Source of the DNA: a virus
Virus record (IMG/VR): IMGVR_UViG_3300025102_000049
Location: 1-50,398 of that record
Direction: 5' to 3' (one strand)
Length of the DNA stretch: 50,398 nt
Shown here: positions 4,907 to 46,604 of the stretch, piece after piece
Layout of the letters: each line of letters opens with the position of its first letter
Numbering within the stretch: position 1 is the stretch's first letter
Made by a program: the position numbers and the translations under genes
Notes under the pieces: generated by a model
What the model saw: only the letters and a program-made list of their open reading frames with translations
The model's database searches: none
Told to the model about the DNA's origin: nothing

Positions 4907-5248
4907 ATGATACCAGTAAACGGATTATTAGATGTAGCAGACTACATTGTAGCACAATATACTAAAGTGAAAATAGGAACAGGTGGTTCTCCTACTTCTT
5001 TTTCTGATTTAAAATTAGACTCTTTTGTAGCAGAGAAGACAGTCGTTCCTTCTGTTAATAGAGCAAGTGGAACTATGTCTTGGGTTGCTGAGTTTACTGG
5101 TTCTGAAATAGGTAATGAAGGTGTAGCAGAACTAGGAATATTCAAGGCTTCAGACGATACACTATTGAGCCGAGTCACCTTCACAAATACAGGAGTGTTG
5201 GCTTCGGCTGATACTTTGACCTTTACTATTGAAATGGAGATGACTTGA
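4907..5248 (+). CDS. Small tail structural protein
   Basis: This is a 113-aa protein with no signal peptide or membrane segment, predicted all-beta. The N-terminus reads VADYIVAQYTKVKIGTGG, and the C-terminal half alternates hydrophobic residues as in small virion proteins encoded just before tail fibres in many tailed phages. AGGAGAT lies 5 bases before the ATG. Its stop TGA overlaps the start of the giant fibre gene by one base, so the two are probably translationally coupled. A role as a fibre-attachment or collar protein is inferred from position only; I do not recognise a named family. Confidence 0.5.
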   Translation: MIPVNGLLDVADYIVAQYTKVKIGTGGSPTSFSDLKLDSFVAEKTVVPSVNRASGTMSWVAEFTGSEIGNEGVAELGIFKASDDTLLSRVTFTNTGVLASADTLTFTIEMEMT

Positions 5249-14200: not shown

Positions 14201-16131
14201 AATTAACAGCCGCAAATCTTCGGACAATAATAGGAATTGGTGCGGGAACAGCAACAATAGAAAATGGGGCAACAGCAGACCAAACTGCGACTGAGATACT
14301 AAGCCTCTTAGAAGATAATATAGATAGTATTCATTATAAGGATGGAAGTGTTGATAATGTCCATTTAGCAAACTCATCTATTACAGTTTCTGATAGCGAA
14401 AATCCAGCAAACACAAGCCCTGTGGCTTTAGGTGGTACTTTGACGTTTGCAGGTACAGCCAATGAAGTAACAGTATTAGAAAGTGCAGGAACAATAACAG
14501 TTGGATTGCCTGATGATGTGACTATTGCAGGTAATCTAACTGTTACAGGCGATACTATTTATCACAACGAAACTATTAGAATTACCGAAGATAACAAAAT
14601 ATCATTCTTCGCAACTGATACGAGTGCTAGTGGTGATGAGGGAGAAGTAATACTGCGAGCGCAAGACCCTACTAACGCTGATGTAACTATTGATTTACCC
14701 TCATCATCAGGTGTTTTAGCATTAGTAGATACGGCAAAACCTGTTAATCATGTTTATGCAGGGCCATCAAGTGGTACTACTGCTGTCGTTCCTACATTTA
14801 GGGCATTAGCATCAACAGATATACCAAATCTTGACATGGGTAAAATTACTAGTGGAATACTTGGGACTGCTAACGGCGGTACTGGTTCTAATTCTGCTCC
14901 TATGGTTGGTGTAATCACTGCGGCAGACCAAGCGGCGGCAAGAACTGCATTAGGCTTAGGAACATTGGCTACTCTTAATACCGTGAACTCAGCAACAATT
15001 ACTAACAATTCAATTGCGGAAGTAGACCTTAAAGTAACAAATAGTGCGACTGCAAGTGAAGATAATTATATTTTGAGTTATGACCATGCTACCACAGGTT
15101 TCACTTGGGTTGCTCCTACTGCGGGTGGTATCGGTTTAACTGATTTATCTGTTGGCTCAGAGGCAAGTGCTTCAGGTGATGGAGGAATAGCATACGATAA
15201 TACAACTGGTGTATTAACTTACACTCCTCCACTTAACATAGCAGGAAATGCTGAAACTGTTACTGTTACTGATAACAATACAAGCACTGTATTTCCAGTA
15301 GTTTTCCATGATGAGTCAAACTCTCTATTAGATGATACTGGTAATTTCACATACAAACCCGATACAGGAGAACTTCGTGCAAACTTCCTAACAGCAACAT
15401 TCGATGCTAATATAAGTGGTAGTGGTAGGGTTTCGGCAACCTCTGTTGCTAGTACTACGATATCTGCCGCTACTTCTCTAACTACACCACTTCTTACTAA
15501 TAATAATGCGTTGTCAATCACAACTAGTGCTAATAATGGTAATATCACAATAAGTCCTAATGGTAATGGAAATGTTACAGTTGGTACTGATAGTGGTTCA
15601 GGTCTAGTGAACATTAGTTCTCCAATATATAAAACAGGTTTACATTCTACTTTAACTGAAACTGCACATACTTCTACTGCAAGCGACCCCGTATCTCAAA
15701 ACTCAAACTCGTATTCGTATGCTCAGAAAAGAGGTATAACTAAAGTACAAGGTAGAGTAGAACCGTTGTCTAGTACTTTATCAAACGGTTCAAATGTGGC
15801 TATTACAGTTTTACCTCTTGGAGCAGTACATGGTAGTAATTGCTCGTATAGGGGAATTAGAGGAACTATACATATTGACGCAGGAATAACAGGCTCAGGT
15901 AATTTTGTGTTGACTCAAGACTTTATTGCTAATGATAGAGATGGAAGTGGAACTTACGCATTTGTTTCTTCAAACGCTGTATTCGAAGGAAGGAATGACT
16001 TCCCTTTTAAGATTTCTTTTGCTGAAATGACTAGTGATGATATGCAATTAAAAATAGAAAACAATACTGGTGGAAATATAGGTACTACTTTAACAATTTG
16101 GTGGGATTTAACGATGTTCCCTCAAGTATGA
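5248..16131 (+). CDS. Giant repetitive tail fibre protein (3627 aa)
   Basis: This is a very long virion fibre, low in Cys and rich in Thr, Ser, Asn, Gly and Ala, built from recurring modules. One recurs at least five times and combines NLTVSGTTTTIN-like strands with a VEDNTVILNK-like strand. Another is the DDVVLAAGNGLSIANNND type, present three times around residues 2370-2540. A third is the AAARTALGLGTLATL type common in phage tail fibres. HLDGVTSSIQTQLNSK-like and DNAVTNAKLAD-like segments also recur. The C-terminal 140 residues lose the repeats and look like a beta-sandwich head (receptor-binding tip is an inference). I chose ATG 5248 over the in-frame TTG at 5245 because GGAG at 5236-5239 is 8 bases upstream of it and the ATG overlaps the previous stop. 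No chaperone-of-endosialidase catalytic domain was seen. Confidence 0.8.
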   Translation: MSGRTNPNFISKMNTNPNARIIDGTDNIHSGIINALNVASGGNRVVRGFNFNLGGSGTYTSYTLNGTDNFFLRDGILTQMQSGTVSQTVNMQSSSDNTYAVLVISAVKDGNGIITGNQLAIRDNTNANMVAPLNADDIPIAVIEIAGGSAPNAVTRRVQFLGYEQTNQGLSIIDNNTETLRINKEGTITKTVSGTETTITIPSTTGTLALTSQIPTAASTRFNVDAAGDSNVFTDADHTKLNAIEANANNYSLPTAAANTLGGIKVGSNLSIDGSGVLSATNTNTQLATSTVQGIVGAMFSGNTETGIDAVYQSSDGTIDLTLTTTDVDVSVSNLETRLAQINTATTIGNGVALTTGGDLTVTGNLTVSGETTTLNVANLAVEDNTVILNKNQTGNSTTNAGIEVERGNYANVQLKWNETSDRWTFTNDGSNYFNIPVTSELANPYTHPSYSTSNINTSGAEIVDSITTNNTGHITAMGTRTLSLADLGYTGSTDANTYVHPNHSGDVTSSADGATTIGANKVTTAKINNSAVTTAKIADNAITNVKVDSNAAIAQSKIDGLVSALSGKEPSLTISDGLDRTGATLKLDIDGLSNENGIDRTADFVAFHDNTVGLKKVNLANIFSKLTASDIPSLSGAYRAVGTKIVNADIDNGANISADKIASGTTNKVFTGTLESKLSGIEAGAEVNVNADWNSGSGDSQILNKPTIPSGNQIIDWTANGAGTIHASNYTNTTYTVGDGGLSQKNFTTALYDKLVGVAANANNFSLTTGAVTNTHLAGSIANSKLDDIAQSKVTGLTTALNSKVENLSDLSITASAAELNILDGVSGVSSTEIGHLDGVTSSIQTQLNSKLSSLALAGLTDVSSFDTSISSGASGSGIPSTLAVKTYVDGKATVDTTYSITTEDGLDADGNNDSAVKTIRLKDNTSGSGSVFHLAMGTGLAIQRSTESNTLTIFNTHTNTSTVSKATITPVLASYNGTETLNIGDTDNDTTVNIRGNLNVLGTTTTVNQTEVNVQNAFVFEGAVDNDFETTLSIAEPTADRTITLPDITGTLITSADTGTISNGMIASTAITSAKIGTNAVLTSKINASAVTTAKLASNAVTNAKLADDAVQTDSIADGAVTVSKITGLTNLGSGIVISSAERTKLSGIEPSADVTDATNVTAAGAVMDGDFTSNGFMKRTGAGSYTVDNSNYLTSLSVTGLSDINAFDLDLSSVSASHDSLASAKAIKAYVDTSVSGAGSFSSFNIKDGVGTTVNVTDGKFVQFTQGTGITATWTDTNSGASTDPFDLTLVNTGVLSNVAGTGIGVSGATGNVTITNTDLGSAQNIFKTIAVSGQDNIVADSNTDTLTLVGGANVNITTTAGSDTITITSTDTDTHLTQEEVEDYVGGLITAGSNITVQYTDNAGSAGSLNIAGTANDDVSIDNLKSKLNSDFGGDFTLGSQADDTLTVSGSLTVGADLIVSGDTITMNTSTLTVEDPLIALGSNNAADTVDLGFYGKYVDGSTIKYTGLFRDTSDSNKWKLFTDTGNTHAAPTTTINTTSGFTLGTLVASTFEGGLVGNATTASTLETARTIAGVSFNGSADIDIPINNLTGTLTAANGGTGLTSISTLLNSNVSLAVADLSDIASLDTDISSVSGSDDTLASAKAIKTYVDAQFAGAGSGDMTGVDITAGDAITVSQSNTTAGNYTATISVSGLGVAQLAGSALQLSSESFNNNDTSLMTSAAIEDKILSYGYGVGTGDGDITSVIAGVGLSGGATTGDATLNLDFSELTDMTGDIAGTTEFIIQDGTTESRKAASEIKLSYFNNDSNWNNYVHPTGAGNNHIPTGGSAGQFLKYSSSGTASWATPSYTTEEQIEDFVAAMITAGTNITSTYDDTAGTLTLSSTDTNTQLSDAQVIAKTLTGLSTATGGAVESGDSILVAFGKLEKRVALNDVKTTNSDTTYSEATSTDLGLVKIGYTESGKNYPVELSSGQMFVNVPWTDTNTNLNLLNDGTLSANSATSAASQQSIKTYVDTSVANLVASAPEALDTLNELAVALQSNDSDITGITTALGNRLRIDVNNQGLSSTQQGYALDNLGITASLTELNILDGGLSDSDIPNLLASKITDGVFASARIPTLNQNTTGTAAGLSSTLAISSGGTGATSAPMIGVVTAANAGAARTVLGLGTASTLSGTGAVANGNAGLVTGDVVFDYIAAQSFATSGASNFVVGDITGQTELSSGLASTDELVLSDDGTLKRMDVSVLQDYMQNSLTFTTDTQRTAGALLDLNGNALDVDLSELTDMTESWVASEDEFVVLDNGVQKRKLSSELFGSNAFNSTSYLTAHPNINAATSVDNSGRTYIQDITLDSNGHITGIVSATETVTDSGNTTYGISAVDGDNTDEEKIRLTGSDSSTDDVVLEAGNGLSVARNGDKITFTNTVTDSGNTNYSIGIPDSTTALRLTGTDSTTDDIEFVGSGTVSVTRTDDSTFTITGTDTNVNTTYGISTLGGASGTTGQTRIRLTDSSGGTDDVVLAAGNGLSIANNNDVITLTNTNTGLSNATLLDKLNTLESATGDDDETINIGADAGDTINFRGNATIAGNSTISGNSTIAGNATIAGNLTVSGTTTTINTATVEVEDNILQLNTTQGSPDTATAATSGISIYRGVDSNNTPITQASFIFDESDDTWDLTDNLTVAGTLTATSPVFTTPNLGTPSAINLTNASSPPTWNQSTSGNAATATNLAGTTTAAFVYAGPTTGSAAAPAFRALAKTDIPTLDQDTTGNAATATTATSATSATTATHVAGGALGSIPYQSASATTALLAGNTTTTKKFLTQTGDDTDSAAPSWGTLATGDIPSLAAGKITSGTFADGRISLSSVAQHLITGASQTKYLKMTTNGSSVASLTARSASEMLDDLGLSAAGKVAVAVGSPSNSTSGLIKISADGSGTLTSSLDTNTYLTSVSTSDIDNDAVTYAKMQNVSATNRVLGRITAGEGVVEELTAANLRTIIGIGAGTATIENGATADQTATEILSLLEDNIDSIHYKDGSVDNVHLANSSITVSDSENPANTSPVALGGTLTFAGTANEVTVLESAGTITVGLPDDVTIAGNLTVTGDTIYHNETIRITEDNKISFFATDTSASGDEGEVILRAQDPTNADVTIDLPSSSGVLALVDTAKPVNHVYAGPSSGTTAVVPTFRALASTDIPNLDMGKITSGILGTANGGTGSNSAPMVGVITAADQAAARTALGLGTLATLNTVNSATITNNSIAEVDLKVTNSATASEDNYILSYDHATTGFTWVAPTAGGIGLTDLSVGSEASASGDGGIAYDNTTGVLTYTPPLNIAGNAETVTVTDNNTSTVFPVVFHDESNSLLDDTGNFTYKPDTGELRANFLTATFDANISGSGRVSATSVASTTISAATSLTTPLLTNNNALSITTSANNGNITISPNGNGNVTVGTDSGSGLVNISSPIYKTGLHSTLTETAHTSTASDPVSQNSNSYSYAQKRGITKVQGRVEPLSSTLSNGSNVAITVLPLGAVHGSNCSYRGIRGTIHIDAGITGSGNFVLTQDFIANDRDGSGTYAFVSSNAVFEGRNDFPFKISFAEMTSDDMQLKIENNTGGNIGTTLTIWWDLTMFPQV
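12985..13074 (+). repeat. 18-bp tandem coding repeat in the fibre gene
   Basis: Five head-to-tail 18-base units start at 12985, 13003, 13021, 13039 and 13057. The first four are near-identical and encode the hexapeptide Gly-Asn-(Ala/Ser)-Thr-Ile-(Ala/Ser); the fifth is degenerate and leads into NLTVSG. Each unit keeps the frame, so copy number can change without breaking the fibre. This is likely one beta-strand turn per unit. Confidence 0.85.
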
Positions 16132-26088: not shown

Positions 26089-26410
26089 TTTTATTCCTCT
26101 TTTTAATTATTTTTTCTACTTCTTCTATGTTAGTAATAATACAATTATTACACTTACAATCTCTACCATGTGCAGGTGGAGGAGTTTCTATTACGTTCAT
26201 CTTAGGCATTCCGTTTTCTACATATACGGAATAACCCAAGACAAACTTAGGTTCATTGAACAACACTGTTTGTGCTATAAAATCCTCTTTTAATTCAACT
26301 ACGTCATCTCTTTTTTCTTCTTTGTTAAAGTATTTATTATAGAGAGCGATTATCTTATCAGCCCTACGTTTGTTAGACCAAGATAAACTACTGTAAAATC
26401 TACTTTTCAA
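26081..26410 (-). CDS. Unknown protein with C-terminal CKCNNC motif
   Basis: This is a 109-aa protein. The frame also opens at TTG 26416, but GGAGG lies 7 bases before TTG 26410, which overlaps the polymerase stop (TTGA); I chose that start. The N-terminal helix is basic (FYSSLSWSNKRRADKIIALY). Residues near 80-95 have PPPAHGRDCKCNNC, a compact Cys cluster that may bind metal. No family recognised. Confidence 0.5.
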   Translation of the reverse strand: MKSRFYSSLSWSNKRRADKIIALYNKYFNKEEKRDDVVELKEDFIAQTVLFNEPKFVLGYSVYVENGMPKMNVIETPPPAHGRDCKCNNCIITNIEEVEKIIKKRNKNE

Positions 26411-27324
26411 AACCAATCCTCCACACTACTTTGTTTTCTATCACGGTATATTTGGGTTATATCCCAACCCATAGCATCATAAATAGGTTCTGCTTTACTA
26501 ATAATAGAACTAGCATAATGCCTATAATCAGGAGTATAACTAGACAATCCTTCTAGTGTCATTGCAGACACATAGTTAGGAACTACATCATTTCTATTAA
26601 GAGGGTGAAAGTAAGTATCGTTCAAGTCTTTGACTCGTAGATATAAATAAGAATCATCAATCATGTTATCAGGGTTCTTTGTATTGTGATATAATACACC
26701 TTCAATACCTGAACCTATTGTTGGTCGTTTACCTTTCATAGTTATGAAACTAGGCTTATTACAACATGGGAATCTTTTCCCATCAACAATGTTAGCAAGT
26801 TCATGTAAGTGATACTTAGATGTTTTACTGAACAAACGAATACAAGTAGAACACTTTACCTGAAAACGTTCTTCTCTAAACCTACTACGTTGGGCTAACA
26901 TTGATTTATCAATATCGCCATTAAGAACATTAAAGTATTCTTCGTGTAAATAGTTAGTAATGTCTTCTTCAGACTCTTCCTTGACCCACCTATCTAAAAC
27001 TTCTAGTTGAATCTTCTTTGCTAAAGGAGTAATTGCTACTCTCTTAGCAGTAAAACCCGTCATAGTAAACTCCAAATCATCTAGGTGCTTACCATCTTTC
27101 CATGAGATTAAACCTGCGTTTCTGTTTTTCTTACATCCTACACCTAAAGTCTTGAAGAACTTCTCAAACTCAAGTGTTACAGGATGTTCCTCTAAACCTA
27201 GAACATTAGGAAATATTTCTCTAACGTGTTCGTTTAACTCATCTAATACTAGTTGTGCTTTCTCAACACTATCATCTTCCATCTTAACGTAGATAGAATC
27301 TGTATGTCCATAAACTACTTTCAT
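26407..27324 (-). CDS. polB: DNA polymerase B, C-terminal half (palm motif C and thumb)
   Basis: This 305-aa protein begins directly at catalytic motif C: VVYGHTDSIYV, with the metal-binding Asp at residue 9. The usual first Asp of YGDTDS is His. The KKNRNAG segment at 65-71 matches the post-motif-C KKxY region with Asn for Tyr. The thumb holds a Cys-containing insert (Cys158, 161, 187, 188) that looks like a zinc site. The protein ends QSSVEDWF, a PIP-box-like tail for binding the viral clamp. The N-terminal half is encoded two genes upstream, and together they make one full polymerase. ATGA overlap with the 68-aa ORF between them. It must pair with the other half to be active (inference). 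Confidence 0.85.
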   Translation of the reverse strand: MKVVYGHTDSIYVKMEDDSVEKAQLVLDELNEHVREIFPNVLGLEEHPVTLEFEKFFKTLGVGCKKNRNAGLISWKDGKHLDDLEFTMTGFTAKRVAITPLAKKIQLEVLDRWVKEESEEDITNYLHEEYFNVLNGDIDKSMLAQRSRFREERFQVKCSTCIRLFSKTSKYHLHELANIVDGKRFPCCNKPSFITMKGKRPTIGSGIEGVLYHNTKNPDNMIDDSYLYLRVKDLNDTYFHPLNRNDVVPNYVSAMTLEGLSSYTPDYRHYASSIISKAEPIYDAMGWDITQIYRDRKQSSVEDWF

Positions 27325-27527
27325 ATTATATTCACATCCTGCAACAGAGATACTAGTCCATAGAAAAATATACCTACTGCAAGATACTTTACAATAATAT
27401 AAACATCACCATAGAACTCTTCTTTCAATCTAACCATTCTATTAGGTTCTGTAAACATTTGTGCATTCATTTCTTCAACTTCTTCTTGTAATTGTTCTAC
27501 ATCTATCTTTGCTGTTTTAATTGGCAT
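27321..27527 (-). CDS. 68-aa membrane microprotein between the polymerase halves
   Basis: The N-terminal 35 residues form an acidic helix (VEQLQEEVEEMNAQMF) and residues about 44-63 form a transmembrane helix (YIIVKYLAVGIFFYGLVSLL). It overlaps the N-terminal polymerase half by 11 bases and the C-terminal half by 4 (ATGA). It carries no intein or endonuclease motif. It could be a polymerase-halves partner, a membrane tether, or an unrelated insertion. Confidence 0.6.
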   Translation of the reverse strand: MPIKTAKIDVEQLQEEVEEMNAQMFTEPNRMVRLKEEFYGDVYIIVKYLAVGIFFYGLVSLLQDVNII

Positions 27528-29208
27528 TCATATCCCTCACTTTAAACGCGGCGGCTCTGATTGCTTCTCTAGCACTAGCAGTAATACTAGCGGCTAAATC
27601 AACATTGGCCCAACCAAATCCCTGATACGCAATTATGCCGTAAAAAGACGCAGATAATCGCTTTACTGCTAACTGATTGTTATTCCACTTAGCGTATTCA
27701 TCTTTAGTTGTTGCTTGTTTCATCTTCTTTTTATATTCGTCTCTTAACTCTTTCAAGTCAAGTACTGCTTTAGGTAGTAAACCTAACTCATCTGTTTTGA
27801 AATACATCATCTCTTCTCTTTTGACTTCACTAAAATCTCTAGGTATCGCTAGGTTAACAGCAAAGTCTGTTGGTTCTTCTGAAATAGTCTCCCACGATAT
27901 ATTTCGTGAGATAATCATACTAGGGTATAGTCCTGCAAAATCAAATGCGGCAACGTTCTGATGAAGACCATTTGTACCTTCACTGAGAGGGTTGTATATC
28001 ATTGCCCCCTCATACTCCTTACGTTCACCTTTCTCCCCCGTAGGGGCTTTCCAAGTAGCATTACGCATGAAATATATTCCTCCCATGTTACTTGCATAGA
28101 AACATGCATCAAATGGTGCTTTCAATAATCGTTGTAATGAGAGAACAGCGTCAACACAATGATTCTCTTCATCAATTCTTTTGATTAACTCAACATCCTT
28201 GAAAGCATATTCTAGATAGGTATCTGAATCTTCTAACCATGCCCTTCTAAAGAACTCATTCTTATCAGGAAACTTCTCACTTACTAACTTAACATCACCA
28301 AGTACACTTTCTGAAACATAGTCCAAAGAAAGTGAAGGTAAAGTTCCACGTTGAGCATCATTCCATTGTCGCTCGAACACTAAATCAAGTGCTACTGTAA
28401 TCATACCTTTAATTGGTTGAGATACAGGAGAGTAACCTTCTACTCTTGACTTCCATATAGTTGGCTTGTTCTTCTTCCAACCAATACCTGTTATCTCATC
28501 AAATGGAGATAGTAGTCTTGGGTCTATTCCATGATGTACCATTCTAGTAAATAGTACAGGTATGTCGAACTTCCATCCAAACCATGAGATAAGCATATCA
28601 GGTTCTTTGTCCATAGCAAATGCTAGAAACCCTGTAAGCATATTATGCTCTCCTGTATATCTATGAAGAATGAAGTTATCATTATCTTTCAATACTACAT
28701 TCCTAGCCTCATCAGGATACCAAGCAAATACATGATACTCATCATCATAGTTATCGTATATTACAATACAAGTAATTGCTTCATCATACTTACCACCTTG
28801 TTGCCATTCCATATCCCAATACCATCTACGTAAGTTTTGTTCAGGTATTTCTTTTACTTCATCAACTGCATATCTATAATGATGTTGAACATCACCCTCA
28901 TATGTTTTCATACCTCTAGCCTCTAGAACTATTCTTACATCTTTAGCATATTTAGGATGTTTGGGTTGCCAAGTTACTTTGTGAAGTTTATCACCGTTTA
29001 AGTTAACCTCATCTGTACTTTCAAACATTACTTTAATTTGAAATGTACCTAAGTTATCCTTACACTTGAAAGTAAATGGTAGGGAAGAGTGTGCTTTATC
29101 TGCATACATGTAAGGTTGAAAGTCGGAGTGAGACACAATCTTACTTTGTATCTCATCTCCTTCTCTCCACCTTAATCCTATTCCATTTTCTGTTTTACAT
29201 ATTATCAT
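27517..29208 (-). CDS. polB: DNA polymerase B, N-terminal half (exonuclease, motifs A and B)
   Basis: This 563-aa protein carries the proofreading exonuclease: ExoI WDMEW (Asp132/Glu134), ExoII SWFGWKFD (Asp215) and ExoIII YAFKD (Tyr334/Asp338). It also carries palm motif A FDFAGLYPS (Asp423) and fingers motif B AVKRLSASFYG (Lys516, Tyr523, Gly524). It stops after SITASAREAIRAAAFKVRDM, where an intact enzyme would continue for a few residues to motif C. The missing motif C opens the downstream gene, so nothing of the conserved core appears lost. Function: leading- and lagging-strand synthesis with proofreading. The ExoII residue before GWKFD is Phe rather than Asn. The start follows GAGGAAT. 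Confidence 0.88.
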   Translation of the reverse strand: MIICKTENGIGLRWREGDEIQSKIVSHSDFQPYMYADKAHSSLPFTFKCKDNLGTFQIKVMFESTDEVNLNGDKLHKVTWQPKHPKYAKDVRIVLEARGMKTYEGDVQHHYRYAVDEVKEIPEQNLRRWYWDMEWQQGGKYDEAITCIVIYDNYDDEYHVFAWYPDEARNVVLKDNDNFILHRYTGEHNMLTGFLAFAMDKEPDMLISWFGWKFDIPVLFTRMVHHGIDPRLLSPFDEITGIGWKKNKPTIWKSRVEGYSPVSQPIKGMITVALDLVFERQWNDAQRGTLPSLSLDYVSESVLGDVKLVSEKFPDKNEFFRRAWLEDSDTYLEYAFKDVELIKRIDEENHCVDAVLSLQRLLKAPFDACFYASNMGGIYFMRNATWKAPTGEKGERKEYEGAMIYNPLSEGTNGLHQNVAAFDFAGLYPSMIISRNISWETISEEPTDFAVNLAIPRDFSEVKREEMMYFKTDELGLLPKAVLDLKELRDEYKKKMKQATTKDEYAKWNNNQLAVKRLSASFYGIIAYQGFGWANVDLAASITASAREAIRAAAFKVRDMNAN

Positions 29209-39339: not shown

Positions 39340-39525
39340 TTATTCTTCCTCCATCATTATACATTTTTGTAAATATACTGCTAGGTCAAGAGCCTCCTCC
39401 TGTGCATGAATTAACCATGCTTTACGAGTTAGGTCTTTCCTTTCCATAGTAGTATTATACTTTCTCTTACCTATTTCGGCTCGTTGCCTTAACTTTACTA
39501 TTACTATCTCTTCTACTTCACTCAT
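39340..39525 (-). CDS. Short MazG-like/NTP-pyrophosphohydrolase-like protein
   Basis: This 61-aa protein has RQRAEIGKRKYNTTMERKDL followed by WLIHAQEEALDLAVYL. This resembles the dATP/dGTP and MazG-type all-alpha pyrophosphatases, where the E-E-x-x-D-x-x-x-Y motif binds Mg. The protein is shorter than most members. It may trim non-canonical or excess dNTPs beside the viral RNR. It overlaps the upstream gene by 8 bases. Confidence 0.55.
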   Translation of the reverse strand: MSEVEEIVIVKLRQRAEIGKRKYNTTMERKDLTRKAWLIHAQEEALDLAVYLQKCIMMEEE

Positions 39526-39748
39526 CTTCTTTCGCCTTCCTTCTTTCGTGCATTACATCTTCAAACGCATGAAGTTGTGCTTCACTCATATGACTAGTAA
39601 ATATAGTGCCACTAATCATATGAATATCAGTAACGTATGTGTTTTTCTTCAACATACCTTGTGCTTCTTCATTAATACAATACCCACTAATATCATCTAC
39701 CTTTAGAGTAGTGACACCTGAATTAGTTACTAAACTAATCAATCTCAT
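39518..39748 (-). CDS. Unknown small protein
   Basis: This 76-aa protein is beta-rich at the N-terminus (MRLISLVTNSGVTTLKV) with a C-terminal helix (AQLHAFEDVMHERRKAKEDE). ATGA overlap with the JAMM gene. No family recognised. Confidence 0.5.
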   Translation of the reverse strand: MRLISLVTNSGVTTLKVDDISGYCINEEAQGMLKKNTYVTDIHMISGTIFTSHMSEAQLHAFEDVMHERRKAKEDE

Positions 39749-40254
39749 TCCTCTTCCCCACTGTATGAACTCTTTTGTTCTAGTAGCCCATAGAAAACCT
39801 TCTTTGCTACAATAGTTTCAGGATTGAATGCTAAGTATTGGTTATCACCAAGAACAATAGCAGACTTTAGTATAGGTTTCCAAGTGTTAATTGTTGACCA
39901 ATCAGTTGAACTGAAATAAGCCTGACCAAAAGGATGAGTGTGAATCCAACATTTAATCGGTATTCTCATCGGTGCGCCGTTTACTAGTTCATCTTCATGT
40001 CCTTCAAATGACACAAAGGATGGGTCGCCACTGCTGATGTATAAATCATCTTTATCATCAACAATTACTTGTACTTCCATACCTTCTAATACATCTATTG
40101 ACATCTTCCATATTGCTGTCATGAAGGCTTCAGTGGAATTGTTAGGGAAGAGATATTCTATATCATCTGCCATATCATTATACACATCTCGTATGTGTTG
40201 TTTCCAATCAAACTCCTTCATTACCTTTTCATTTTCTGTTACTTCTTCTTCCAT
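39745..40254 (-). CDS. JAMM/MPN+ metallopeptidase
   Basis: This 169-aa protein has a complete JAMM zinc site HTHPFGQAYFSSTDW: His105, His107, Ser115 and Asp118, with PIKCWIHTHP as the preceding strand. Such proteins remove ubiquitin-like proteins or trim their C-termini. The frame opens further upstream at 40311, but GAGGAGGAATAAAA gives ATG 40254 a far better start. It shares the strand with a ThiF/E1-like gene (41285-41875) and a ubiquitin-like ORF ending in Gly-Gly-Tyr (46404-46604), suggesting a linked conjugation or processing pathway. Substrate unknown. Confidence 0.8.
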   Translation of the reverse strand: MEEEVTENEKVMKEFDWKQHIRDVYNDMADDIEYLFPNNSTEAFMTAIWKMSIDVLEGMEVQVIVDDKDDLYISSGDPSFVSFEGHEDELVNGAPMRIPIKCWIHTHPFGQAYFSSTDWSTINTWKPILKSAIVLGDNQYLAFNPETIVAKKVFYGLLEQKSSYSGEEE

Positions 40255-40256
40255 TT

Positions 40257-40406
40257 TTATTCCTCCTCGTTTTTCTTTATTTTTGCTGTTGCTTTCTCTA
40301 ATTGAATCCAATTAGAAAACGTTAGACTTGCATCTATTCTTCCATCAAGTAATGCTTGTTCATAATCATCACGCATTTCTTGAAACTTTCTTCCCATCTT
40401 TCCCAT
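40257..40406 (-). CDS. 49-aa helical microprotein
   Basis: The peptide starts MGKMGRKFQEMRDDYEQALL and ends AKIKKNEEE, a charged helix. A run of six G 7 bases before the ATG serves as ribosome site, and the ORF fills the gap between the C2H2 finger gene and the JAMM gene. Function unknown. Confidence 0.5.
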   Translation of the reverse strand: MGKMGRKFQEMRDDYEQALLDGRIDASLTFSNWIQLEKATAKIKKNEEE

Positions 40407-40646
40407 TTATATTCCCCCCATATTATCTATAATCATATCTTGACTGTTAACAAACTCATGATAGGCTCGATGTCCTGCAATGAATCCACCTGCATGTCTT
40501 TTAGTTCCTAAGAACTCCTCACCACATACAGGACAAGTAACCTTTACTATCTCTGCTTGTTGGTAATATCCATCTGTTGAAATAACATTCATAACTTCGT
40601 CAATCATTTGTTCGTCTATATCTTCTATATTCTCTTCATCACTCAT
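40407..40646 (-). CDS. C2H2 zinc-finger protein
   Basis: This 79-aa protein has CPVCGEEFLGTKRHAGGFIAGH at residues 38-59, a C-x2-C and two His, with a preceding acidic helix (EENIEDIDEQMIDEVM). The finger resembles DNA-binding archaeal/viral C2H2 proteins. ATGA overlap with its upstream neighbour. Likely DNA or protein binding. Confidence 0.55.
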   Translation of the reverse strand: MSDEENIEDIDEQMIDEVMNVISTDGYYQQAEIVKVTCPVCGEEFLGTKRHAGGFIAGHRAYHEFVNSQDMIIDNMGGI

Positions 40647-40915
40647 ATTTTCACCTTCATATATTGTCTCAATGTTTTTATTGGTCTAAGTAATTGTTTA
40701 CCCTCGACCTTGGTTTCTGTTTTAGATTCTACTACGGATGTAGTTTTACTAAAAACACTTACACCACTTTTTATTCTTCGCCTGTACTGTTCTCTCCACA
40801 TTACTTGAACACAATCATTGCAGAACCTTCTGCTATCTGCCAAATGTTCGGGAACAGGTTCATCCTCTTTACCACAAAGAGTCTTTCCTAATATTGTAAA
40901 GCAGATATATTTCAT
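40643..40915 (-). CDS. Cys-rich protein with CxxC pair
   Basis: This 90-aa protein has Cys at 5 and 14, a His at 24 and C-N-D-C near 32-35 that could chelate zinc, followed by a basic C-terminus (WREQYRRRIKSG, then RPIKTLRQYMKVKI). The pattern is not a standard ribbon. Function unknown. Confidence 0.5.
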   Translation of the reverse strand: MKYICFTILGKTLCGKEDEPVPEHLADSRRFCNDCVQVMWREQYRRRIKSGVSVFSKTTSVVESKTETKVEGKQLLRPIKTLRQYMKVKI

Positions 40916-41058
40916 TATTCAAAACCCCCTCTCTCTGTTATTCTTTTCATCATTAGTTTGTATGAACCATACCTACCTTTGCCATGGCACTTCCAACAGA
41001 GTGGGCGACCAATATAGGTAAGTTGTGATTCGTTTTTATTACATACTATGCACTTCAT
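40915..41058 (-). CDS. 47-aa zinc-ribbon microprotein
   Basis: CIVC (3-6) and CWKC (21-24) form two CxxC pairs, followed by a basic GKGRYGSYKLMMKRI tail. The ATG overlaps the upstream stop (ATGA) and its own stop TAA shares bases with the next ATG. Function unknown; nucleic-acid binding is likely for the basic tail. Confidence 0.6.
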   Translation of the reverse strand: MKCIVCNKNESQLTYIGRPLCWKCHGKGRYGSYKLMMKRITERGGFE

Positions 41059-41285
41059 TCTTCTTTCTCCTTGTATGCGGGATGGGTCTTTGGTAATCTA
41101 TGTAATCTTCTACTCATCATATTATGGATGAGAGAGGAAACAGAGTCAGCCCCATCCAAGAATCTTTTCTCGGCTGTTTTATCTCCTGAAGGACACATCT
41201 TCTCTTCTAATTCTGTTAAGTCTATTCTATCCATAAGATGCTTCAGTACTTCATATTCGACATGTATCTTAGAAGCGGCTCTCAT
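41055..41285 (-). CDS. Unknown small helical protein next to the E1-like gene
   Basis: This 76-aa protein has a helical N-terminal segment (EYEVLKHLMDRIDLTELEEK) and a central Cys in MCPSGD. The start overlaps the E1-like gene stop by one base (TAATG). No family recognised. The pairing with the E1-like gene is noted for the modification-system hypothesis. Confidence 0.5.
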   Translation of the reverse strand: MRAASKIHVEYEVLKHLMDRIDLTELEEKMCPSGDKTAEKRFLDGADSVSSLIHNMMSRRLHRLPKTHPAYKEKEE

Positions 41286-41875
41286 TAAACATTCACCACC
41301 ATTTTATCAGCAACGTTCTCATTGTCTTGCCACCATCTTTGAATCCACTGTACTGCAATACCTGCAATTGCAACTTGCATACAGTTTACTTGTTCAGGAC
41401 TACCATCCCAATCTCCACCTTGACAACTGAATGAACCTTCTGCTCCTGATAGTAAATCGTCAACAAGATTAGCATTAACCTTGTAAGAGATTAAAGCCGC
41501 ATTGCGACCTTGCGCTCTCAAATCCAACCACTTAATCTTAGCATCATCACCATATCCTTGACGATATAATAAACGTCTTACTGCTAAGTTATCAGCACAA
41601 CAAACTACTAGGTCATATCCTTTCAATTGTTTCTCCACTAATACTTGATAAGGTTGAGGCTTCACAGGTTTTAACCCGTTTACCTTCAACCTATTGTTGA
41701 GAGCGTTAACTTTAGTTTGTCCTACCATATCGGCCATAAAGTTTTGATATGTTAGATTCTTTTCTTCTAACTTATCATCATCAAATACTGTTATGTCGTA
41801 TATACCAATTCTCGATAGGAAGTCAACCAAATAACTTCCAATTCCACCTGTTCCTATTATCATTACTTTTCTCAT
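41285..41875 (-). CDS. ThiF/MoeB/E1-like adenylating enzyme
   Basis: This 196-aa protein has the Rossmann nucleotide loop GTGGIGSY (8-15), FDDDKLEEKNLTYQNF (31-46) with the Asp pair 32/34, a Lys at 55 in GQTK, and CCADN at 92-96. The usual N-x-x-R-Q has Tyr in place of Arg (YQ). Cys151 and Cys165 in the C-terminal part are candidates for the thioester or zinc role. The length (196 aa) is a minimal E1 core without extra domains. E1s adenylate the C-terminal Gly-Gly of ubiquitin-like proteins for transfer or sulfur delivery. A ubiquitin-like ORF is encoded 4.5 kb upstream in the same direction. ATGA overlap with the TFB gene. Confidence 0.8.
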   Translation of the reverse strand: MRKVMIIGTGGIGSYLVDFLSRIGIYDITVFDDDKLEEKNLTYQNFMADMVGQTKVNALNNRLKVNGLKPVKPQPYQVLVEKQLKGYDLVVCCADNLAVRRLLYRQGYGDDAKIKWLDLRAQGRNAALISYKVNANLVDDLLSGAEGSFSCQGGDWDGSPEQVNCMQVAIAGIAVQWIQRWWQDNENVADKMVVNV

Positions 41876-42750
41876 TCTCTTATTCCTCCAATTATTTTAT
41901 TTACATTATATTTATTCAAGATAGTTCTTTCTATCTGTATTAATTCACATATCTTTCTTATGTGTATTCTCAGTGTTACTTCACTGATATTAACTGTTGA
42001 TGCTAATTCTCTCTGTAATACTGAATGACCTAACATCTTACATGCAATGTATACTGCTCCCGCGATTTCACCATTACCAACTCTAACATTAACTGATTCA
42101 TAATAGTTAGATACATAGTCAACAAAAGCAAAGATAAGATTTCTATCTTTTATATCTGCTCCTGATTTATCTAAGCATACGGTTACTACATCATGAACAT
42201 CTCTAACACCAAAAATATGAGACTTACGATAGAACTTGGCTATCTTTTTAGAAGCCCTCATTATCTTACTTCTATGAACTCCTGTTGTTTTCTGTAAAGA
42301 CTTGAGCGATACAAAAATACTTTCATCCTTTAGAATGAAGTATGCTAAACCTGCCGCCCTAACTTCTGTTGGTAGACCAATTAATACTCTATTTCGTTGT
42401 AACTCTTGATAGTAGTGTTCTACCTCTCTTCTTAATGAGAGTTTATACGGTTTGTAAGGAGATAGATACATCATACATGTATTGTGAGTTGCTATATCTC
42501 CTTCTGACCAAAACTTACTCTTTGCCTCCGTCTTAATATGGTTGAGTCTTAGACTATGTTTTACAGACGTTTTACTTCTATTACCAAATTGTATTGTACT
42601 ACCCATACCATATTTAGAGTCTGATTCCATTGCACTAGACGTTTCCTCGAATATCTCGACATTAAGCACAAGACCACAATCAGAACATATGTGGTAGCCC
42701 AACCTATCATCAAACGATGATTCGGTTGAGCCACACTCCATACACTTCAC
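41872..42750 (-). CDS. tfb: Transcription initiation factor B (TFIIB family)
   Basis: This 292-aa protein has the zinc ribbon CMEC and CSDC (Cys3, 6, 22, 25), a B-finger-like segment, and two cyclin-fold repeats, with GEIAGAVYIACKMLGHSVLQ in the second. It recruits RNA polymerase to TATA/BRE promoters. The GTG start at 42750 overlaps the previous stop. A viral copy may redirect host RNA polymerase to viral promoters; the repeated AATAGAAATAA motif is a candidate target, which is inference. Confidence 0.88.
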   Translation of the reverse strand: MKCMECGSTESSFDDRLGYHICSDCGLVLNVEIFEETSSAMESDSKYGMGSTIQFGNRSKTSVKHSLRLNHIKTEAKSKFWSEGDIATHNTCMMYLSPYKPYKLSLRREVEHYYQELQRNRVLIGLPTEVRAAGLAYFILKDESIFVSLKSLQKTTGVHRSKIMRASKKIAKFYRKSHIFGVRDVHDVVTVCLDKSGADIKDRNLIFAFVDYVSNYYESVNVRVGNGEIAGAVYIACKMLGHSVLQRELASTVNISEVTLRIHIRKICELIQIERTILNKYNVNKIIGGIRE

Positions 42751-44051
42751 GCTTTAGCCTCCAATGCTTTCTTTGCCGCATAGTCTTGTTCTTTCTGTTT
42801 AGACCAAGAGTTTAGTTTGGACATATCCATACGGTAATTATCAGGGTTTACTAGGTTTCTTTCAGATGCTTGTTTAACATAATCAACAATAGTATAGATA
42901 CTCTTAGCAGAAGTTTCATCATTCATTAATGCTAATGCTCTAGCAGTTAGTTGGTCGCCAATGCTTGAGTTTCTATGAATATTATCAATACATATTGGGC
43001 CAGTGAGTGAATGACCTTTCCAAGTTTTTCCACCTGCATCTTTACCATTAATCATGTATGTGTTAACATTCTGATGACCAAGTTTCATACCTTTCTTCTC
43101 ATCAACAACAACCCAATCAGCAACTTTACCTCTAACGAATAGAGCCTTGTTCATTGGGTTTCTGAATTGAACCAATCTAATATTCGGATATTCAGCATCC
43201 ATATCATGTAGTAGTTTTGTTGCTCTGTCTTCAACCATATTCTGCTTTCTGTTCTGCATTAACCACGCTATACATAACTTCTGTTCTGTTGGACTAGGCA
43301 TATTACCCATCAACAATTGCCATAATTTTGAAGGGTCTGCTCTATACCAAGTCTTAGACTTAGATTGACCAAACCTAAAAGTATTAATGAACACATTCAA
43401 ATCTTTGAGAGTAATAGCACCCCAAACACCTTCGGAAATCTCTAAGGCACATTCGGTTTCACTGATTACTTTAGTATTAATCAACACCTCATGTTTTTCT
43501 CCTACATGATAAAAATTGTAATTACTTCTATTTTCAATAGCATGAAGAACATTAGGTGGATAGTGAACAACCTTCTCAATGTAATCATCCATTACAAGTA
43601 CATCTCTTACAAACGCACCACGAATTATTATCTTAGATAGAACAACTGCAAGGTCTTTCTTACTTACTCTAACACCATCAATATAATGTCCACTACCTTT
43701 TCGACCATAAACAACAATACTTTCACCATTATGGTATTTGAAAGTTATAGTATTCAAGAAGTTTTCATTCTGTACTTTAGTTAACAATGCGTTAGTTATT
43801 AATGCAGAAGTATTTGTTAGTACAGGGTCTTGTTCACCTCTAACATTTGATAGGCTTGGCCTAGTTACTTGCCATGACATTTCCCCAAATTGATTGAAAG
43901 CATTTCTATTAGTTACATACTTACCGAATCTATCTCGCATCCAAATACTGCGAAACAACTGTTTCTTAGATGACCTGAGCAAGAAACTACTAGTTGTGTA
44001 ACTTCTTGTGTCATCTCCTACTGAGGGTATTGTTACTTTTATTTTTACCAT
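42747..44051 (-). CDS. Large unknown protein with possible E2-like region
   Basis: This 434-aa protein was not recognised as a known family. Residues 276-360 have an E2-like order: an amphipathic helix (ATKLLHDMDAEYP), strands (LFVRGKVADWVVVDEKK), a YMINGKDAGGK turn, then GHSLTGPICIDNI, where Cys354 follows Gly-Pro-Ile and precedes Ile-Asp. This echoes the G-x-I-C-L-D around the catalytic Cys of ubiquitin-conjugating enzymes. The N-terminal 250 residues are beta-rich with a basic start (FLLRSSKKQLFRS). Position between an E1-like enzyme plus TFB and the RNR/ubiquitin-like pair adds weight, but the match is weak. AAGGTGAATAAAA gives the start. Confidence 0.35.
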   Translation of the reverse strand: MVKIKVTIPSVGDDTRSYTTSSFLLRSSKKQLFRSIWMRDRFGKYVTNRNAFNQFGEMSWQVTRPSLSNVRGEQDPVLTNTSALITNALLTKVQNENFLNTITFKYHNGESIVVYGRKGSGHYIDGVRVSKKDLAVVLSKIIIRGAFVRDVLVMDDYIEKVVHYPPNVLHAIENRSNYNFYHVGEKHEVLINTKVISETECALEISEGVWGAITLKDLNVFINTFRFGQSKSKTWYRADPSKLWQLLMGNMPSPTEQKLCIAWLMQNRKQNMVEDRATKLLHDMDAEYPNIRLVQFRNPMNKALFVRGKVADWVVVDEKKGMKLGHQNVNTYMINGKDAGGKTWKGHSLTGPICIDNIHRNSSIGDQLTARALALMNDETSAKSIYTIVDYVKQASERNLVNPDNYRMDMSKLNSWSKQKEQDYAAKKALEAKA

Positions 44052-44334
44052 TTTTATTCACCTTTTTATTTTCTTTTTCCCAATATTTGGCATCACCATA
44101 ATTATGTAAATACCATGCGTCTCTTTCTATATGAGAAGCAAGTTCTTCCATTGATTTGAAAGAACTATGCCCTCCTACAACAGCACGTTCCATAGAATGA
44201 TACAACTTACTGTATCTAAGATTACCACTCTTGTATAGTTTGAAACTCTTGTCTAACCAAACCCTTTGAGGGATAGTTACACTAGTCCTAATAACATACT
44301 CGAAGTTAAGGAAATCTTTCTCTTTAATTAACAT
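44011..44334 (-). CDS. Unknown basic protein
   Basis: This 107-aa protein starts 1 base after the RNR stop and overlaps the following gene by 41 bases. It has an N-terminal helix pair (IPQRVWLDKSFKLYKSGN, then FKSMEELASHIERDAWYL) and a low-complexity Lys/Asn tail. No family recognised. Confidence 0.5.
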   Translation of the reverse strand: MLIKEKDFLNFEYVIRTSVTIPQRVWLDKSFKLYKSGNLRYSKLYHSMERAVVGGHSSFKSMEELASHIERDAWYLHNYGDAKYWEKENKKVNKNGKNKSNNTLSRR

Positions 44335-46236
44335 CTATACTTCACATGCTCCACCTGCACAGGCTATTTCGCCCTGAAGGTTGGTGGTATCCTCCAATTC
44401 TATTACTTCAGTCAAATCTATTGGGTGAAGTTTTTTGACCATTTCGTTATATCTTTCTTCATCTATTTCTTCGAATGGGGCTTGTTTGTATTCTCCTCCA
44501 TGATAAGGTAAGAAAGACATACCGTTGTATGAATGTCTATTATCCCATAGCCATTGAGTTACTTCTTTCCATTCTGTTGGTTTAACGTAAACAGTAGCCG
44601 AAACATTGTGACCATTGTTTCCTCTACGATGACCTGTTTTAACCCAATTCTCAGAAACAAACTTTACTCTCTCTAACATATCCAAAGCAGTTTCATCTGC
44701 TCTTGTTGTCACATAGTCGTATGGAATAGTTTGTGGTATAGATAGTACTGCACTTTCATCTTCTTTACCTATTTCATCTTCAATCAAATCAGGAAGTTTC
44801 TCTAACAAGTAAGGATAGATTGCTTCACTCTTACCTACACGAACTGACCTGAGATAGTACTTTCCATACCATGCATGAATACCACTAGAAGTTCCTAAAA
44901 CACAACTAGTTGTTCCTGCGGGTTTAACGCATGTAGTTCTAGCGGCTTCGTTGATACCAAGCATCTTAGCGTAGGTAGCATTAGTTGTCTTAACTAACAT
45001 TGCCGCCTTACTATACCAAGAATCCATGAGTTGGTTACTAGCAATACCTGTCATACCAATACCAATAAGAGCATCTTTCTCAGTGTTCCTTCTCCAAACT
45101 TCTCTAAGATAGTGGAAGTCAGTATATGTCGCTTGCACTGTTCCTAAGACTGTCGCCGCCTCTACTCGTTGTAGTAAGTCTGCCTCGTTTTCAACATTAG
45201 ATACATTAACTTCGCAAAGGTTGCAGAACTGATAAGGTCGTAGTCCTATTTCTACACAAGGATTAGTACCCCAATCTTTGTCATTAGTTAGATAAACGCC
45301 GGGTTCTCCTGAATGACTATTAGCAACATTAGACATTAGTTCTTTGAAGAAATCTTCTGTAACTCTATGTCTCAATACAACTGCCGAATTGTTTGCTCTA
45401 TATCTTTGAGCATTACCTTCTTCTGCGAAGTTACCTGCTTTAGCATTAATCATCTCTCTATCATCAGCACTGAATAAACTGATTAAAGCAGAACGGCGAA
45501 TACCTCCTGATAATACAGTATCAGCAATATAACACATCATGTCATGTGCTTCAATTGGCTTAATCTTATGTCCTTCTTTCATCTCATTGAACATACCTTG
45601 TATAATAACAATACACTTCTTTAGTGGTTCAGGGCCGGGTGCATTTCCACCTGTTGTTTTGAGTCTAGCACCTTTAGGTCTAATGTCTGAATAGTCAAAT
45701 CTAGGCATTGTTGTTCTCTTACCAGTATAACTATCAAAAAGAACTCTAATGGCTTCAGCCCAACCTTCAATGGTGTCGGCTACTTTGTATCTATAAGTTC
45801 TATCAGTACTAGGCTTTCTAACAACAGGTAGTTTGTCAATATGATGTTTCTGTACTGAGAAACCAACACCTGTTCCACCCAATAGTAGGAACATTGCTTC
45901 ACTAAAAGATAGAGTACTATCTATTGGTAAGAATGCACAGTTATATATTCTATTTGGAGATACTTCTATTGGCTTTCCGCCAAACTGCATTGAACGCATT
46001 GATGGAAGTATCTTTCGAGTTTTAACGAAGTTGTCATATACATCATATAACCTAGTTGCTATTGTAGTATAAGTATCCTCATCTAAATCCAATGTTTGTT
46101 TTAGATGTTTAAGATGCATGTTTCTATTTCTATCACAAATCTCATCCCATGTTTCCTTTCGTTGTTCTGTTTCTATCCATTTAGCATACTTCATATTCTC
46201 TACGGTTTCTGCTAATACTTCATTCCCTAATTTCAT
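44335..46236 (-). CDS. nrdJ: Class II (adenosylcobalamin-dependent) ribonucleotide reductase
   Basis: This 633-aa protein makes dNTPs from NTPs or NDPs using coenzyme B12. It has YNCAF (Cys100), the active-site NPCVE (Cys327/Glu329), and the C-terminal redox pair CAGGAC (Cys626/631). The order and size match monomeric class II RNRs of the Lactobacillus RTPR type rather than the longer bacterial NrdJ. There is no NrdB or NrdG partner, consistent with class II. The host or its neighbours must supply cobalamin. AAAGGAGAGAAGGAAA lies before the ATG, after a 167-base leader. Confidence 0.9.
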   Translation of the reverse strand: MKLGNEVLAETVENMKYAKWIETEQRKETWDEICDRNRNMHLKHLKQTLDLDEDTYTTIATRLYDVYDNFVKTRKILPSMRSMQFGGKPIEVSPNRIYNCAFLPIDSTLSFSEAMFLLLGGTGVGFSVQKHHIDKLPVVRKPSTDRTYRYKVADTIEGWAEAIRVLFDSYTGKRTTMPRFDYSDIRPKGARLKTTGGNAPGPEPLKKCIVIIQGMFNEMKEGHKIKPIEAHDMMCYIADTVLSGGIRRSALISLFSADDREMINAKAGNFAEEGNAQRYRANNSAVVLRHRVTEDFFKELMSNVANSHSGEPGVYLTNDKDWGTNPCVEIGLRPYQFCNLCEVNVSNVENEADLLQRVEAATVLGTVQATYTDFHYLREVWRRNTEKDALIGIGMTGIASNQLMDSWYSKAAMLVKTTNATYAKMLGINEAARTTCVKPAGTTSCVLGTSSGIHAWYGKYYLRSVRVGKSEAIYPYLLEKLPDLIEDEIGKEDESAVLSIPQTIPYDYVTTRADETALDMLERVKFVSENWVKTGHRRGNNGHNVSATVYVKPTEWKEVTQWLWDNRHSYNGMSFLPYHGGEYKQAPFEEIDEERYNEMVKKLHPIDLTEVIELEDTTNLQGEIACAGGACEV

Positions 46237-46403
46237 TTTCCTTCTCTCCTTTAATAAGTGTTTTTAGTAGGCTTCTCACCTACTTGACATCTGCCCCGAT
46301 GTTAGGACTACAAACGTGCGTAATACAGCATATAGTAGTTATCTCCCATGTGATATACACCACAGGGGTTTCTTGACAATCCGACTTTTTTTTATTTACC
46401 GAA
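46237..46403 (-). promoter_or_regulatory. RNR leader region with two hairpins
   Basis: This 167-base gap has no ORF with a ribosome site. On the minus strand it holds CCC-x-TGTG paired with CACA-x-GGG (around 46339-46363) and AGTAGG paired with CCTACT (around 46268-46286), the second just before the RNR ribosome site. No B12-box of cobalamin riboswitches was found. A regulatory leader or promoter for RNR is plausible, not proven. Confidence 0.35.
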
Positions 46404-46604
46404 TTAATAGCCGCCGACAATAGCAGGGACTAGGTTTACATTATCAACAGTTGACCAATCTATGTTGGTTATGTTCTGTCTGCTTACCATATCACCGTTA
46501 ACATAAACCCAATGAGTTGGGTGTTCTGCTATCTGCTCAATCATCTCTGCACTAGATACCTCTAGTTCAGTGTGGCCTGTTTCATTCATTATTCGCAATT
46601 TCAT
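46404..46604 (-). CDS. Ubiquitin-like (ThiS/MoaD-like beta-grasp) protein ending in Gly-Gly-Tyr
   Basis: This 66-aa protein has a beta-grasp order: strand MKLRIMNETG, strand HTELEVSS, helix AEMIEQIAEHP, strand HWVYVNGDMV, and a last strand NVNLVPAIVGGY that ends in Gly64-Gly65-Tyr66. The LVPAIVGG end is very close to MoaD/ThiS and SAMP C-termini, where Gly-Gly is adenylated. The extra Tyr66 would have to be removed before activation, which suits the JAMM peptidase on the same strand. AGAAGGTAATAAAA gives the ribosome site. It lies just upstream of RNR. Alternatives: a stand-alone sulfur carrier, or a chance beta-grasp resemblance. Confidence 0.6.
   Translation of the reverse strand: MKLRIMNETGHTELEVSSAEMIEQIAEHPTHWVYVNGDMVSRQNITNIDWSTVDNVNLVPAIVGGY

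Follow-up and report, generated by a model that had tools for sequence, protein, structure and literature searches.

Magrovirus-like viruses probably run a protein-tagging cycle of their own during infection. We analyzed IMG/VR record IMGVR_UViG_3300025102_000049, positions 1 to 50,398 (50,398 bases, 50.4 kb; the window), in which genes for a small ubiquitin-like protein (Ubl), an E1-like adenylating enzyme and a JAMM peptidase lie on the minus strand. This trio appears to be carried, adjoining replication genes, by a large and widespread group of marine viruses whose presumed hosts are archaea. The usual course for a virus is to exploit the ubiquitin system of its host or to block it; magroviruses appear to bring their own modifier, activating enzyme and deconjugase. 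An earlier reading of the DNA letters (the sequence-only reading) had reported three open reading frames (ORFs) of 66, 196 and 169 amino acids (aa) with ubiquitin-pathway motifs within 7 kb of one strand; all three were present as it described and where it had placed them:

46404..46604, minus strand: Ubl, 66 aa, predicted beta-grasp ubiquitin-like protein with the C-terminus VPAIVGG+Y (ORF, AlphaFold2 model, Foldseek, invariant Gly-Gly)

41285..41875, minus strand: E1-like adenylating enzyme, 196 aa, with a candidate catalytic Cys151 in S[FY]SCQ (ThiF match, PDB profile matches, invariant residues)

39745-40254, minus strand: JAMM/MPN+ peptidase, 169 aa, with E60...H105-T-H107-P-x6-S115-x-x-D118 (motif, AMSH-LP profile match)

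Profile searches of the viral collection gathered approximately 240 loci. Loci found from different seed genes share contigs in part, and the co-occurrence counts that follow overlap. Ubl-seeded loci with enough downstream DNA contained both the E1 and the JAMM (69/69), E1-seeded loci contained both the Ubl and the JAMM (37/37), and JAMM-seeded loci contained the E1 in 45/45 and the Ubl in 44/45 cases. When the seed was an unrelated gene for a 434-aa protein, all three were recovered in 45/45 loci, and the E1 together with the JAMM in 70/70. Absence of E1 and JAMM genes would have spoken against the sequence-only reading, and in the 69/69 and 70/70 loci with sufficient flank they were never missing. 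After removal of near-identical E1s, 79 non-redundant contigs were left, and in every one of them a single strand carried Ubl, E1 and JAMM in this order, with 2.7-8.1 kb from Ubl to E1 and a gap of -27 to 2007 bases from E1 to JAMM. Exactly one such E1 was found per genome in 20 genomes of 83-103 kb. The trio was constant in a block whose ribonucleotide reductase (RNR), chaperonin and zinc protein are variable (56, 33 and 33 of 79, respectively), and it appears to belong to the core genes in all examined genomes of this widespread marine archaeal virus group. Co-occurrence, gene order and invariant residues give good support to the earlier claim that Ubl, E1 and JAMM form one pathway.

The Ubl profile found no match by sequence in the PDB, and the single sequence matched Pfam ThiS at 0.0044, below the cut-off. 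An AlphaFold2 model built from 18 sequences (mean pLDDT 85.6) predicted the order beta-beta-alpha-beta-beta-alpha-beta with a disordered Gly-Gly tail, and the top PDB matches of this model in Foldseek were ubiquitin, NEDD8 and SUMO, with probabilities up to 0.99. The beta-grasp-like fold on which the sequence-only reading had staked its case is thus predicted for the 66-aa protein. Loss of Gly-Gly in homologues would also have counted against that reading; the motif was invariant in 79/79 Ubls, at pairwise identities down to 35%. The residues that follow it vary freely (Y, C, SL, NQ, NC, QE, IR and more) and number zero in 6 contigs, one in 32, two in 40 and four in 1. The Gly-Gly codons occurred in 13 combinations with synonymous variation, and no start codon was present within 11 nucleotides (nt); variable codons, together with the lack of a start codon where a ribosome site would need one, indicate selection on the protein. 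Of 43 conserved families, the Ubl family alone had Gly-Gly among the six C-terminal residues in all its members (background 7.6%). There was no lysine past residue 3 in 67/80 Ubls, and most have one near the N-terminus, or none. A modifier nearly devoid of lysines would probably go onto its target as one copy, and lysine-linked chains are unlikely.

The E1 matched Pfam ThiF (PF00899) at 2.8e-18, above the cut-off, and carries in order the motifs GTGGIGSY...FDDDK...CCADN...SFSCQ. Its profile matched the PDB structures of Cap2, UBA5, MoeB and ThiF (2e-10 to 2e-7), with Cap2 as the best; Uba4 is also among the best solved relatives. Across 80 aligned E1 rows GxGGIGS, D32, D34, N40, Q44, K55, D95, N96, R100, R120, R124 and Cys151 were invariant. 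These features mark the 196-aa protein as a ThiF/E1 reduced to a minimum, with a Rossmann adenylating domain, and the position of Cys151 makes it the candidate catalytic cysteine. The best named family across E1 members was PRTRC_ThiF (TIGR03736), matched by 20/20 (best 3.3e-19); the window E1 reached 50 bits against a cut-off of 144.75 bits. Against the UbaA model NF047750 it scored 45.8 bits (cut-off 450), and it was equally close to ThiF.

Cellular relatives of the E1 were few in the genome collections: two apparently mis-binned viral contigs, followed by Methanoperedens E1s at 34-36%. The two contigs, L239 and L240, are filed under Altibacter and Maricaulis metagenome-assembled genomes and look mis-binned in that they carry magrovirus genes; both contain the E1 and a JAMM, and L239 also contains the Ubl. 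The Methanoperedens contigs (L241:9998-11174 and L242:9875-11077) encode an E1 that shares the YQNF subtype. Approximately 90 nt behind it comes a conserved protein of 166 aa with the C-terminus KGKGG, and the two may be another E1/Gly-Gly-tail pair on an archaeal element.

The JAMM motif (E, HxH, x7, SxxD zinc site) was complete in 79/79 contigs. The single sequence matched Prok-JAB at 0.0048, below the cut-off; with the profile, the nearest solved relatives were the deubiquitinase AMSH-LP (1.4e-5) and an archaeal Rpn11-like protease (1.9e-4). The start was placed at a conserved ATG (169 aa); the list of ORFs offers a TTG further upstream as well (188 aa). The sequence-only reading had proposed that the JAMM removes the terminal Tyr of the Ubl before activation. 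Such trimming is plausible, but it cannot be the sole job of the enzyme: in six contigs the Ubl ends exactly at Gly-Gly, and the JAMM motif is intact there. Tail-less Ubls arose at least 3 times independently on a quick, midpoint-rooted E1 tree. An intact JAMM beside tail-less Ubls suggests a further role, most simply deconjugation. The C-termini of nearly all JAMM proteins are acidic (GEEE, EEE, DEDE); the GA-rich codons behind them lie immediately ahead of the following gene and may be a further overlap with a ribosome site, of the kind described below for the zinc protein.

We consider it fairly likely that the trio constitutes a virus-owned, minimal and reversible Ubl conjugation cycle. 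In this cycle the JAMM would trim the tail of one or two residues from the Ubl and expose Gly-Gly, which the E1 would adenylate with ATP before loading the Ubl onto Cys151, as its motifs suggest. The Ubl would then be passed to protein amines with no recognizable E2 or E3, in the manner of the SAMP-UbaA system of archaea, or, more speculatively, with the aid of the neighboring 434-aa protein and its invariant cysteine. Later the JAMM would take the Ubl off its substrate. The trio shares its strand with the replication module and has a viral transcription factor B (TFB) as a neighbor, and action early in infection is therefore likely. Viral proteasome subunits were looked for and were absent, so any degradation would rely on those of the host. 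Published work on archaea shows that a TATA-binding protein carries ubiquitin-like linkages and is directed to the proteasome (PMC4895103). With the viral TFB constantly beside the trio, one may speculate that transcription could be a target.

Several observations weigh against a conjugation cycle. In Pfam and NCBIfam the Ubl has weak matches, the best of them to ThiS, which is a sulfur carrier, and the best Foldseek match of its model had an E of only 3e-3, with TM values of 0.4-0.5. Neither an E2 nor an E3 was found, the family UQ_con being present in 0/20 genomes in a search that had no positive control. The strongest grounds for caution on standard E1 chemistry lie in two features of the E1 sequence. 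Most E1s have an Arg after NLx (NLxRQ), Arg73 in MoeB; this position is Tyr43 in 76/80 E1 rows and Arg in none. The E1 also begins at the first Rossmann strand and is without the N-terminal Arg-bearing helix. Neither the Arg after NLx nor that of the N-terminal helix is universal in the ThiF superfamily; their joint absence means that the ATP chemistry may differ.

The alternative that survives best, although we regard it as unlikely, is that the Ubl carries sulfur in the manner of ThiS, MoaD, CysO or QbsE, being uncapped by the JAMM and adenylated by the E1, with a host persulfide then yielding a thiocarboxylate that would serve a tRNA, a cofactor or a small molecule. The ThiS matches of the Ubl and the equal closeness of the E1 to ThiF agree with it, as does a precedent in gene content: in both the QbsE and the CysO system a Ubl is joined by an E1 and a JAMM. 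Such gene clusters have been described (PMC1779556). A donor or acceptor enzyme encoded alongside would be expected of such a pathway; rhodanese, the ATP_bind_3 thiolase and PALP were found in 0/20 genomes, with positive controls, and the census of neighbors contained no conserved sulfur-acceptor enzyme. Host genes could supply the sulfur donors, a further point on the side of sulfur transfer. We favor conjugation because the rhodanese, PALP and thiolase-type families are absent from the 20 genomes. The sequence-only reading had left it that the system modifies proteins or carries sulfur; of these two, protein modification seems the likelier.

That the trio instead serves counter-defence, with the viral E1 and JAMM over-activating, depleting or stripping a SAMP-type system of the host and the viral Ubl acting as decoy or competitor, seems to us improbable. 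Archaea use SAMP modifiers with the E1 UbaA and HvJAMM1 (PMC4443979, PMC4895103), and Borg elements have been reported to encode numerous JAMM proteins with a predicted role in the removal of host SAMP (PMC12660748). The location of the trio within the replication module would also suit a role against the host. For pure stripping, however, a Ubl of the virus's own, with an invariant Gly-Gly in every genome, would be needless. A reading in which the three genes act independently and only happen to share a conserved replication block is very hard to credit: the Ubl and E1 are kilobases apart and not in a tight operon, and the entire block is conserved, TFB and the 434-aa protein included, yet the trio is never lost where RNR, chaperonin and zinc protein come and go, and its proteins match in biochemical logic with all active-site residues invariant.

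A conjugation cycle of this kind has counterparts among known systems. The SAMP-UbaA-HvJAMM1 system of Haloferax is likewise archaeal and has a Gly-Gly-ended Ubl, a single ThiF/MoeB-type E1, no classical E2 and a JAMM deconjugase (PMC4443979, PMC4895103). In contrast, the magrovirus set is viral and its genes stand in one block, most of its Ubls have a tail after Gly-Gly, and its 196-aa E1 falls far under the cut-off of the UbaA model NF047750. The PRTRC plasmid system (ThiF, JAB and proteins B, C, E and F) also places a Ubl and a JAMM on a mobile element, and its small E1 belongs to the nearest named subfamily (TIGR03736; hhalign 98.4%). The magrovirus genes differ in that the E1 is under the cut-off, the gene order is another, and the genes are spread over 3-9 kb and linked to TFB and RNR; no PRTRC NCBIfam matched the JAMM or the Ubl. 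The likeness to PRTRC drawn in the sequence-only reading therefore holds for the E1 and not for the gene set. We rejected membership in the system: the E1 is related but under the cut-off, no relative of PRTRC_B was recognized with the single sequence used, and the gene set is unmatched.

The bacterial phage-defence systems Bil, Bub and Cap2-Cap3 share the logic of an E1 with a JAMM, and among PDB structures it is Cap2 that matches the viral E1 best. They are owned by the host and have an E2, separate or fused, whereas the magrovirus set is owned by the virus and no E2 was found in it. In lambda-type phages the tail proteins I and K pair a viral Ubl with a conserved Gly with a JAB peptidase (PMC1779556); they belong to a tail assembly module and have no E1, unlike the magrovirus set, in which an E1 is always present and the location is the replication module. 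The crAss-like phage crAss001 (Gp76-Gp77) has a phage E1 (hhalign 98.4%) directly after a gene with an HSHx7SxxD JAMM motif:

L253:4256-6654, Bacteroides phage crAss001: JAMM-motif protein directly upstream of a ThiF-like protein

This pair is known from its E1 and JAMM genes alone, and differs in that the E1 has 383 aa with an N-terminal extension and the JAMM, of 414 aa, is weakly alike.

Sets of Ubl, E1 and JAMM are thus already known from bacteria, archaea and plasmids, as are Ubl-JAB pairs from lambda-type phages (PMC1779556). We found no earlier description of the trio in magroviruses in a literature search that was incomplete for the central magrovirus papers, and the accessible literature on magroviruses and marine archaeal viruses mentions neither ThiF nor ubiquitin. 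If the conjugation cycle is real, it gives archaeal virologists a testable mechanism of early infection, shows to what size an E1-Ubl-JAMM cycle can shrink, and extends the history of ubiquitin signalling by a viral branch.

No relatives of the window were found at the DNA level among phage records. By its hallmark genes it matches a magrovirus-like archaeal tailed virus. The International Committee on Taxonomy of Viruses describes Magrovirales by a genome of 90-110 kb, a split DNA polymerase B (PolB), TFB, RFC and two oppositely transcribed clusters (PMC10768690; PMC12999244); a tailed-virus genome with ligase and GroEL/ES was also included among the hallmarks tested (PMC10768690). Split PolB, TFB, RFC and ligase are all in the window, and we base the assignment on their agreement with this description. 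The minus strand carries the split PolB, RFC, an ATP-dependent ligase, TFB and a B12-type RNR; two very large ORFs occupy the opposite strand, and the GC skew of the record changes sign near 20 kb:

26407-29208, minus strand: split PolB, N- and C-terminal genes, arranged as described for Aoguangviridae

63-4895, plus strand: very large ORF, 1610 aa, probably a tail or fibre protein

5245-16131, plus strand: very large ORF, 3628 aa, probably a tail or fibre protein

Related viral genomes reach 92-103 kb, and inspection of the sequences identified GroEL-like proteins in 33/79 and GroES-like proteins in 30/79 loci.

The neighbors of the trio comprise two constant and two accessory genes:

42747..44051, minus strand: 434-aa protein, possible partner, two genes upstream of the E1 (79/79 loci, invariant C354)

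41872..42750, minus strand: TFB, overlapping the E1 start by 4 bases (Pfam Zn_Ribbon_TF 7e-8, TFIIB 1.9e-4; 79/79 loci)

40407..40646, minus strand: C2H2-like zinc protein, 79 aa, accessory, between E1 and JAMM, ending MGGI (29/69 Ubl-seeded loci)

39518..39748, minus strand: 76-aa conserved protein, accessory, with a DIHMxSGTIFT motif (profile matches)

The 434-aa protein and TFB stand between Ubl and E1 in 79/79 contigs, and the gap from TFB to E1 ranges from -29 to 2154 bases. The 434-aa protein has one invariant cysteine (C354, in GPICIDN) and many other invariant polar residues. Its confident AlphaFold2 model (pLDDT 91.8) matched no known fold in the PDB by Foldseek. We rejected it as an E2, which GPICIDN recalls by its resemblance to the E2 motif GxICLDIL, on the grounds that Pfam, the PDB profile search and Foldseek gave no support, and as a relative of PRTRC_B, given an hhalign probability of 0.1 against the single PRTRC_B sequence. 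On the evidence of the motif, an E2-like partner role has a low probability. A bolder version of the conjugation cycle, in which magroviruses would own a complete and essential cycle of new layout, with the 434-aa protein as an E2-like enzyme or ligase of unknown fold, and would use it to re-program the archaeal cell early, for example through transcription factors, appears doubtful to us.

The zinc protein was considered as a second Gly-Gly-tailed modifier and rejected, as the ribosome-binding site (Shine-Dalgarno) of the next gene probably explains its Gly-Gly. The codons are mostly GGAGGA or GGGGGA, and a start codon follows 2-8 nt (mostly 5-8) downstream in 36/37 cases. Relatives of this protein end in Gly-Gly and one further residue, with the exception of two divergent ones that have no Gly-Gly. 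The zinc protein and the 76-aa protein accompany the trio in part of the viruses only, and the latter differs in position between viruses, standing after the JAMM, directly before the E1, or before the Ubl.

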